From Pseudoduganella albidiflava (lineage in GTDB: Bacteria; Pseudomonadota; Gammaproteobacteria; Burkholderiales; Burkholderiaceae_D): a DNA stretch of 64,000 nucleotides. Shown in pieces: positions 3,250 through 64,000 of the stretch; the stretch's first letter is position 1, and each line of letters begins with the position of its first letter. Both the position numbers and the translations under genes were made by a program. The notes under the pieces are model-generated. The model made no database searches, was not told where the DNA came from, and saw only the letters and a list, made by a program, of their open reading frames with translations. The stretch lies in NCBI RefSeq assembly GCF_004322755.1, contig NZ_CP036401.1, positions 1,240,001 to 1,304,000 on the forward strand, given 5' to 3'.

Positions 3250-3283
3250 ATCCGGGGTCAGACCCCGGTTTCAGGAAACATTC
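3250..3283. repeat. Palindromic GGGGTCAGACCCC repeat, copy 1
   Basis: The core GGGGTCAGACCCC lies at 3254-3266, with a right arm GGTTTCAGGAAACATT resembling the arms of the other copies. The left arm is truncated. It sits between the cheA terminator and the leuC promoter. The family also occurs at 14547-14628, 21160-21370, 56733-56910 and 63123-63168. Confidence 0.8.
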
Positions 3284-63122: not shown

Positions 63123-63168
63123 AACATTTCCAAAAATCGGGGTCTGACCCCGGTTTTTGGAAATGTTT
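63123..63168. repeat. Palindromic repeat, near-complete copy (copy 10)
   Basis: The best-preserved member. Core GGGGTCTGACCCC (63139-63151) lies inside a near-perfect inverted repeat of about 46 bases with arms AACATTTCCAAAAATC and GGTTTTTGGAAATGTT. It sits between two terminators of opposite strand. Confidence 0.92.
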
Positions 63169-63319: not shown

Positions 63320-63637
63320 TTACTTGGATGCGACGGTCAGTTCGCTCTTCACTTCCTTGACGCCTTCGACGGCCGAAGCAGCCTGGATGGCCTTGGTGCC
63401 TTCGTCGGTGCTCGGCACGGAGCCGGTCAGCGTCACTACGCCCTGGTTGGCGGAAACACCGATCTGTTTCTGGTCAGCCAGCGCAGCCTTGACTTTCGAG
63501 GTCAGCGCAGAGTCGCCGGCAGCAGCGGCGGCTCCTGCCATGGCGGCATCCTGTTGCGGCTCGGCGGCAAAGGCGGCGGAACCGAAAGACAGGGAAGCGG
63601 CAGCCAGCAGGGAGGCGATCAGTTTGGTGTTCGTCAT
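63320..63637 (-). CDS. BON-domain periplasmic protein (OsmY-like)
   Basis: A 105-residue secreted protein with a signal peptide (about 1-24, ending AAFAAEP), an Ala-rich linker, and one BON domain (about 45-105: SALTSKVKAALADQKQIGV, VTLTGSVPSTDEGTKAIQ, VEGVKEVKSELTV). BON proteins such as OsmY are periplasmic envelope-stress proteins. The ribosome binding site GGAGA is 7 bases from ATG. It is preceded by a consensus sigma-54 promoter and two TGTC-N10-GACA dyads. Confidence 0.9.
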   Translation of the reverse strand: MTNTKLIASLLAAASLSFGSAAFAAEPQQDAAMAGAAAAAGDSALTSKVKAALADQKQIGVSANQGVVTLTGSVPSTDEGTKAIQAASAVEGVKEVKSELTVASK

Positions 63638-63691
63638 GGTATGAATCTCCATCGTAGTTTAAGGAACGCCGTGTGACGTTGCGCTACTACT

Positions 63692-63707
63692 TGCAAGCGC
63701 CGTGCCA
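63692..63707 (-). promoter_or_regulatory. Sigma-54 (-24/-12) promoter of the BON gene
   Basis: On the minus strand TGGCACG-N4-TTGCA (plus 63692-63707) matches the sigma-54 consensus (YTGGCACGrNNNTTGCW) at every conserved position. The start of transcription would be about 45 bases before the ATG. It has no competing sigma-70 promoter that I recognised. Confidence 0.85.
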
Positions 63708-63801
63708 GCTCAAAAAAATCGAGCAGAATCAAGGGCTTGGAGATTCAGGCAAGGTTATCTTGCCGACAAGAATTACAATTCGAGACAATTCGGGGCCGTT
63801 T

Positions 63802-63819
63802 TGTCGTGAAACGGCGACA
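63802..63819 (-). promoter_or_regulatory. Putative GlrR activator site 1
   Basis: TGTC-N10-GACA, exactly the consensus reported for GlrR in enterobacteria, about 120-140 bases upstream of the predicted sigma-54 start of transcription. Confidence 0.65.
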
Positions 63820-63861
63820 GGGCCCCGGTACAGCTAAGCCAACTATTTGATTCTTATGGGA

Positions 63862-64000
63862 TTAGTCCTGTCGCTCTTCAGCGACAGTGCCGCCTTCGCG
63901 GAACTGGGCCGCGTTCAGGTCGTACTTCGACAGCAGGCGGTAGAACTCGGTCCGGTTGCGTTCGGCCAGCCGTGCGGCATCGGAGACATTGCCATCCGTG
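63862..64000 (-). CDS. glrR: GlrR/QseF-type sigma-54 response regulator, C-terminal end
   Basis: Only the last 45 residues are in the window. The minus strand reads GNVSDAARLAERNRTEFYRL followed by LSKYDLNAAQFREGG, the Fis-type helix-turn-helix that ends NtrC-family activators. It closely resembles the end of E. coli GlrR (GNVTHAARMAGRNRTEFYKL). A short acidic tail (VAEERQD) is specific to this protein. The stop is TAA at 63862. The AAA+ and receiver domains lie outside the window. It is oriented the same way as the BON gene. Confidence 0.82.
   Translation of the reverse strand, partial: TDGNVSDAARLAERNRTEFYRLLSKYDLNAAQFREGGTVAEERQD
63869..63886 (-). promoter_or_regulatory. Putative GlrR activator site 2, inside the glrR-like gene
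   Basis: A second exact TGTC-N10-GACA dyad, which is also a near-perfect hairpin (TGTCGCT / AGCGACA), 67 bases upstream of site 1. It lies inside the last codons of the activator gene and so could help activate the downstream sigma-54 promoter. Confidence 0.6.

Follow-up and report, generated by a model that had tools for sequence, protein, structure and literature searches.

A candidate GlrR-σ54 circuit for a BON-domain envelope protein encoded directly behind glrR in Pseudoduganella albidiflava

Introduction

What does the response regulator GlrR (QseF) control outside the enterobacteria, and does it control the gene that lies directly behind its own? In the accessible text of the papers cited here, the small RNA GlmY and rpoE are the enterobacterial outputs through which the QseE/QseG/QseF system is known. 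In E. coli, QseF activates glmY as well as rpoE (PMC6075780), in agreement with what a first-pass annotation of the DNA analyzed here had stated for GlrR. The available portions of two papers describe enterobacterial glmY as being assisted by IHF and having QseF sites of the consensus TGTN12ACA (PMC6075780), and as having two putative IHF sites and three putative QseF sites, whose printed consensus, TGTCN10GACA (PMC8745638), is the one that the annotation had given for GlrR. According to the accessible parts of the respective papers, qseEGF clusters with qseG between qseE and qseF also occur in Betaproteobacteria (PMC12691602), QseF-like activators are listed as a class (PMC3162934), and GlrR/GlrK groups exist in Acidithiobacillia (PMC12194929).

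Here, we present an analysis of a BON gene and its upstream region at the end of a 64-kb stretch of the P. albidiflava genome (the window), and of the corresponding regions in related genomes. With a probability that we put at roughly 0.85, the sequence evidence points to a local circuit in which GlrK/QseG would act through GlrR, two dyads, and IHF on a σ54 promoter to bring about transcription of the BON gene. In such a circuit, which would be a new form of QseE/QseG/QseF signaling, a protein would be made where enterobacteria make the small RNA.

Results

The features of the locus are collected in Table 1. glrR is the last gene of an operon in which a kinase, a lipoprotein-like protein, and a σ54 response regulator are encoded in the order of QseE/QseG/QseF; in the accessible text of PMC12691602, this is the same three-gene cluster as betaproteobacterial qseEGF. 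The GlrK-like kinase has HAMP, HisKA, and HATPase domains. GlrR (459 aa) consists of a receiver domain, a σ54 AAA+ domain, and a segment that weakly matches a Fis-type HTH; its best NCBIfam model, NF011695, gives 603.8 bits, which is below the cut-off of 763, and the next model gives 414.6 bits. Among the matches listed, the closest named GlrR is that of Duganella radicis, with 86% identity. When the window's GlrR was aligned with three enterobacterial ones, all four proteins had the HTH segment RNRTEFYxLL. The middle protein (210 aa) has the position of QseG and, by eye, a lipobox and a C-terminal motif that is common to the enterobacterial middle proteins; it had no match in NCBIfam, Pfam, or the PDB sequences.

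Table 1. Features of the glrR-BON locus. Positions are those of the window unless preceded by a locus name.
Feature	Position	Strand	Basis or remark
BON gene (105 aa, single BON domain)	63320..63637	-	ORF from inner ATG
BON 5′ leader (inferred)	63638..63681	-	Sequence; start site inferred
-24/-12 σ54 promoter TGGCACGGCGCTTGC	63693..63707	-	Pattern match
IHF-consensus site 2 AATCAAGGGCTTG	63727..63739	+	Exact consensus match, 32 bp upstream of -24
Proximal TGTC-N10-GACA dyad, putative GlrR site	63802..63819	.	Centre ~-130 from inferred start
IHF-consensus site 1 AATCAAATAGTTG	63840..63852	-	Exact consensus match, between dyads
glrR (qseF), 3′ end	63862..64000	-	Whole gene L005:1863-3242 (minus), beyond window edge
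Distal TGTC-N10-GACA dyad, putative GlrR site	63869..63886	.	Centre ~-197, in coding 3′ end of glrR
qseG-like gene	L005:3242-3874	-	Upstream of glrR, outside window
glrK	L005:3864-5291	-	Upstream of qseG-like gene, outside window

The BON gene follows glrR on the same strand, with a gap of 224 bp to its start. We placed this start at 63637 and not at the upstream ATG at 63652, based on a Shine-Dalgarno-like GGAG and on the relatives. The protein scores 61.4 bits with the Pfam BON model, above the gathering score of 27, and by eye, it has a signal peptide that ends in AFA-AE. By sequence, the solved structures nearest to it are those of OsmY (8.8e-15) and YraP (5.1e-6). Like OsmY and DolP (YraP), which are exported E. 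coli proteins with two BON domains each, it contains a BON domain; unlike them, it contains only one, and it scores below the curated NCBIfam cut-offs for OsmY (48.0 bits; cut-off, 174) and DolP (27.4 bits; cut-off, 184).

Upstream of this gene, the complete -24/-12 promoter proposed in the first-pass annotation is present on the minus strand, with GG at -24, GC at -12, and the canonical spacing between them. It is the sole exact match to TGGCAC-N5-TTGCW in the window; with one mismatch, this pattern is as common in the window as expected by chance (2 found, 2.56 expected). RpoN is encoded in the genome (459.7 bits; cut-off, 277.35). From the spacing of σ54 promoters, we put the probable transcription start about 12 nt downstream from the GC at -12. 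A short stem-loop (63665-63680, minus strand) lies immediately after this start site and recurs with an altered sequence in the relatives L088, L092, L010, L140, and L216; as a strong element, this hairpin was rejected, its folding energy being unremarkable in the window (z, -0.38). Downstream, between the BON gene and a homoserine dehydrogenase-like gene, a copy of the palindrome GGGGTCWGACCCC at 63139 sits in the middle of an inverted repeat that is longer; the window contains seven copies of this palindrome (0.00 expected), the others being at 3254, 14561, 21172, 21305, 21344, and 56885.

Both exact TGTC-N10-GACA dyads were found again 67 bp apart, as annotated, the proximal one 94 bp from the -24 element. 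The distal one, which had been assigned to the 3′ end of a GlrR-like gene, indeed overlaps the last codons of glrR (stop codon, 63862-63864). Exact dyads occur 5 times in the window (0.65 expected) and 119 times in the genome, compared with 85 times for a reversed control pattern; single dyads are frequent in the genome and, therefore, prove little alone, and we rejected the dyad by itself as evidence. In combination with the promoter, the dyad is strong evidence: a dyad located 68-98 bp before a strict TGGCAY-N5-TTGC element has one match in the 7.44-Mb genome, and this match is the BON site. With a relaxed -24 element and a distance of 69-99 bp, the same single genomic match was obtained; the reversed control had one match as well, in only one of its directions. 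At a distance of 38-68 bp, there was no match in the window's genome, and at 100-130 bp, there was one, at genomic position 6614107 (L233).

The same upstream region contains two IHF-consensus sites that the earlier reading of the sequence did not list. Using WATCAANNNNTTR, which we take to be the IHF consensus, both exact matches of the window fall in this region, in opposite orientations (0.37 expected in the window; at least two matches in 2 of 100 shuffles). IHF alpha is encoded in the genome with a score over the cut-off.

We then compared the locus with its counterparts in 145 family genomes, a set that includes close relatives. Counted as present at an E value of 1e-120 or better, GlrR is encoded in 28 of them, with one match each, and in 26 of these 28, a BON gene lies directly after glrR. 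A strict -24/-12 element precedes 25 of the 26 glrR-linked BON genes (that of G107 has one mismatch), and both dyads are exact in 19 of the 26 regions. The seven genomes of one genus, g27, which is probably Herbaspirillum by its likeness to L007, keep the BON gene and the promoter with no exact dyad; they have degenerate dyads with one or two mismatches each at the same places, of which only the distal one was found in L099. The two GlrR-bearing genomes in which these searches revealed no linked BON gene also have elements of the module: in G141, both dyads and a strict σ54 site are followed by a cyanophycin synthase-like gene, and in G043, glrR is followed by a single exact dyad and by a strict -24/-12 element, with no BON match. 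Eight BON genes located away from glrR (L002-L004 and L110-L114) have neither an exact dyad (0/8) nor a strict σ54 site (0/8) within approximately 1.5 kb on each side. The comparison of upstream regions thereby upheld the proposal that the GlrR site and the -24/-12 element are conserved in relatives. In the seven genomes of genus g6 and in G141, there is an in-frame TAG within the GlrR alignment; because this TAG falls inside the distal dyad in those sequences of these genomes that were displayed, it suggests that what is kept here is the DNA site rather than the GlrR protein tail.

The combined pattern of dyad and strict σ54 site was found in 24 of the 145 family genomes, and its reversed control in none (0/145). 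It is present in 20 of the 28 genomes with GlrR versus 4 of the 117 genomes without (Fisher p, 1.5e-14, with kinship ignored), and it adjoins glrR in 18 of those 20, lying elsewhere in G067 and G107. At the order level, where a gap of 62-92 bp was searched that excludes the window's own site with its 94 bp, 52 of 399 genomes have the pattern (reversed control, 0/399). The family and order searches together yielded 85 distinct matches, and in 45 of them, a GlrR ortholog lies no more than 400 bp upstream; a GlrR neighbor was defined by >55% identity within 400 bp in the family and order and by >48% identity within 500 bp in the class, a criterion that may miss some neighbors.

Taking as the downstream gene the best-scoring ORF of our script and not an annotation, we found BON next to 27 of the 45 glrR-adjacent matches (28 by our own BON profile, for which 12 of the loci later counted had served as input) and next to 3 of the remaining 40. 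The protein encoded at L186 matches the profile at 3.6e-5 and was removed from the BON count, as Pfam shows only an EF-hand. By Pfam, the other glrR-adjacent cargo comprises a weak EF-hand together with BON (L162), glycine zipper proteins (L164 and L190), a CsbD-like protein (L187), a rhodanese (L195), a cyanophycin synthase-like protein (L124), and a glycosyltransferase (L152), while the cargo at L188 and L174 has no Pfam match above the cut-off; at L012, a locus found through GlrR, the cargo is MdoG. Throughout the order, the module often retains its position next to glrR, whereas the gene downstream of it varies. At the class level, 23 of 369 genomes have the pattern (reversed control, 2/369). 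Of the 25 matches that were new at this level, 4 adjoin GlrR and 3 match the BON profile, one of them weakly. Small EF-hand proteins are encoded behind 6 of the 25, and 2 of these 6 matches adjoin GlrR.

The association with glrR bears on the question of which activator serves the σ54 promoter. It could instead be driven by a different enhancer-binding protein of the NtrC type that recognizes a similar site, glrR being a mere neighbor. This idea draws on the TGTCAC-type dyads at L133, L137, and L138, which lie near NtrC-type regulators that are 38-43% identical to GlrR, and on the 40 of 85 matches that are not beside GlrR. Since these 40 lie elsewhere, some of them beside other NtrC-type regulators, the pattern alone is not specific, and away from glrR, we regard it as suggestive but not as proof. 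However, the other 45 matches directly follow glrR, the pattern is concentrated in the family genomes that encode GlrR, and the dyads are of the type that precedes GlmY in enterobacterial loci: at L019, L023, and L027, where Rfam detects GlmY, this RNA is preceded by dyads, by IHF-like sites (exact or with one mismatch), and by a -24/-12-like site. Altogether, we consider it improbable that a regulator other than GlrR accounts for the BON promoter. A GlmY-like RNA at the BON promoter itself was considered and rejected, as L005 has no Rfam match.

The arrangement of the elements was analyzed in 41 distinct regions that follow a GlrR of at least 65% identity. Geometry was counted in the 38 of them that have a promoter together with a pair of dyads (no such combination was present at L011 and L013, and L099 was left out), with dyad pairs sought at a spacing of 60-82 bp only. 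Both dyads are exact in 25 of the 38 regions, and they are spaced by 66-68 bp in 29 regions and by 77 bp in 9, i.e., by distances that differ by about one helical turn. With up to one mismatch, IHF site 1 is present in 33 of the 38 regions, all 33 having one 34 bp from the distal dyad, and IHF site 2 is present in 35, at 32-33 bp from the -24 element in 32 of them, at 31 bp in two, and at 21 bp in one. The distance between the proximal dyad and the -24 element takes 13 distinct values from 60 to 113 bp, which cluster by helical phase (p, 0.002 versus uniform). In an alignment of ten loci that were chosen by protein similarity and not by motif, the columns of the IHF sites, dyads, and promoter are more conserved than the rest, a comparison that relates to this one alignment with its gapped middle and to background columns taken from it. 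The fixed IHF spacing and the helical phasing are what a looped protein-DNA complex would require.

This geometry speaks against the idea that the dyads act as hairpins in RNA or DNA, for instance as an end signal of glrR, with BON expressed by read-through or from an unrecognised promoter. The dyads are inverted repeats, and one of them spans the glrR end, as this idea would have it. Nevertheless, a terminator scan revealed nothing terminator-like at the dyads; the fixed spacing to the IHF-consensus sites and to -24, with its helical phasing, fits DNA looping; and L102 retains TGTC and GACA although the inner bases of the dyad differ. We therefore give hairpins very little weight compared with GlrR sites.

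Least probable of all, in our view, is that the GlrR sites mainly regulate the glrK-qseG-glrR operon, with BON as a bystander: one dyad is inside glrR, and exact dyads are located upstream of glrK in L009 (1808-1890), L013 (1709-1792), and L011 (1806-1823), but the window's genome has no exact dyad in the examined stretch upstream of glrR, including the region before glrK, and the conserved -24/-12 element points into BON with a near-fixed geometry. L011 and L013 have no module after glrR, while L009 also has one there, in degenerate form. In these three loci, the dyads before glrK have the place of glmY in enterobacteria; neither an Rfam GlmY match nor a strict -24/-12 element was seen upstream of glrK in any of them.

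Discussion

We propose the following model for GlrR-dependent expression of BON. GlrK (QseE), together with the lipoprotein QseG, would sense the state of the envelope and phosphorylate GlrR (QseF). GlrR would then bind both dyads, which lie approximately 130 and 197 bp before the predicted transcription start of BON; the distal dyad belongs to the gene of GlrR itself. IHF may introduce one bend between the dyads and a second one between the proximal dyad and the promoter, and these bends would bring the ATPase of GlrR to the σ54 RNA polymerase waiting at the -24/-12 element, such that BON would be transcribed; the exported BON protein would finally act at the envelope. The elements, their conservation and spacing, and the linkage to glrR were observed; the steps from GlrR phosphorylation through DNA binding and bending to activation, as well as the action of BON at the envelope, are extrapolated from the enterobacterial system.

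As far as the accessible text of PMC6075780 and PMC8745638 goes, the locus resembles the QseE/QseG/QseF-glmY system in having the kinase, a putative lipoprotein gene, and the σ54 activator in one operon, with TGTC-N10-GACA sites, putative IHF sites, and a σ54 promoter next to it. It differs as follows: the promoter lies after glrR here and before qseE in the glmY system; the distal site is within glrR; the product is a BON protein and not, as in Enterobacteriaceae, the small RNA GlmY; and glmY has an overlapping σ70 promoter (PMC6075780), while a simple scan found none at BON. With QseF-dependent rpoE of E. coli, as described in the accessible part of PMC6075780, it would share a σ54 promoter of a protein-coding envelope gene; the E. 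coli target is a sigma factor gene, while the proposed target here is an exported protein encoded beside the regulator.

Among the papers listed from the open-licence literature in PubMed Central, we found no description of a GlrR/σ54 circuit for a BON protein, no joint report of QseF with a BON domain or with an EF-hand, and no report of a BON domain with an RpoN promoter. Within the available text of the individual papers, PMC1084347 contains the term GlrR as well as the term BON domain; in the main text of PMC12691602, neither BON nor sigma54 occurs as a whole word.

If the model is correct, BON would be a direct output of QseE/QseG/QseF outside the enterobacteria; in this genome, there may be no other strong one. 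It would provide a simple reporter of the signal to which the system responds, and it would permit a clean genetic test in harmless soil bacteria. Moreover, a regulatory module would have kept its place and geometry although its output changed from an RNA to a protein, and the gene of a regulator would carry a binding site for that same regulator.

More tentatively, and with somewhat less than even confidence, we speculate that the module of dyads, IHF sites, and σ54 promoter is old and that its cargo has been swapped during evolution, between small envelope proteins that are exported (BON, EF-hand, EF-hand/BON fusion, and glycine zipper) and enzymes of the envelope, for example MdoG; the enterobacterial small RNA GlmY would then be one derived cargo, and direct control of an envelope protein would be the general output of QseE/QseG/QseF.

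Several further occurrences of the elements deserve mention. Away from glrR, four bactofilin genes (L173, L177, L180, and L183) have the dyad and σ54 pattern. In four genomes of family f27, matches to this pattern (L148, L149, L150, and L168) have no convincing downstream gene; a small RNA is possible there. The TGTCAC-type dyads and σ54 sites at L133, L137, and L138 precede repeat-rich exported proteins, and they probably belong to another regulator with a similar site. In a gammaproteobacterial MAG (L020:5374-6600), dyads and a σ54 site after glrR are followed by genes that, by eye, are ybgC- and tolQ-like. Finally, in loci of Desulfobulbaceae, Desulfocapsa, and Nitrospirota (L021, L026, and L030), the gene after glrR seems by eye to encode an exported fibronectin-type protein, with dyads seen at L021 and L030 and a σ54-like site at L026 and L030.
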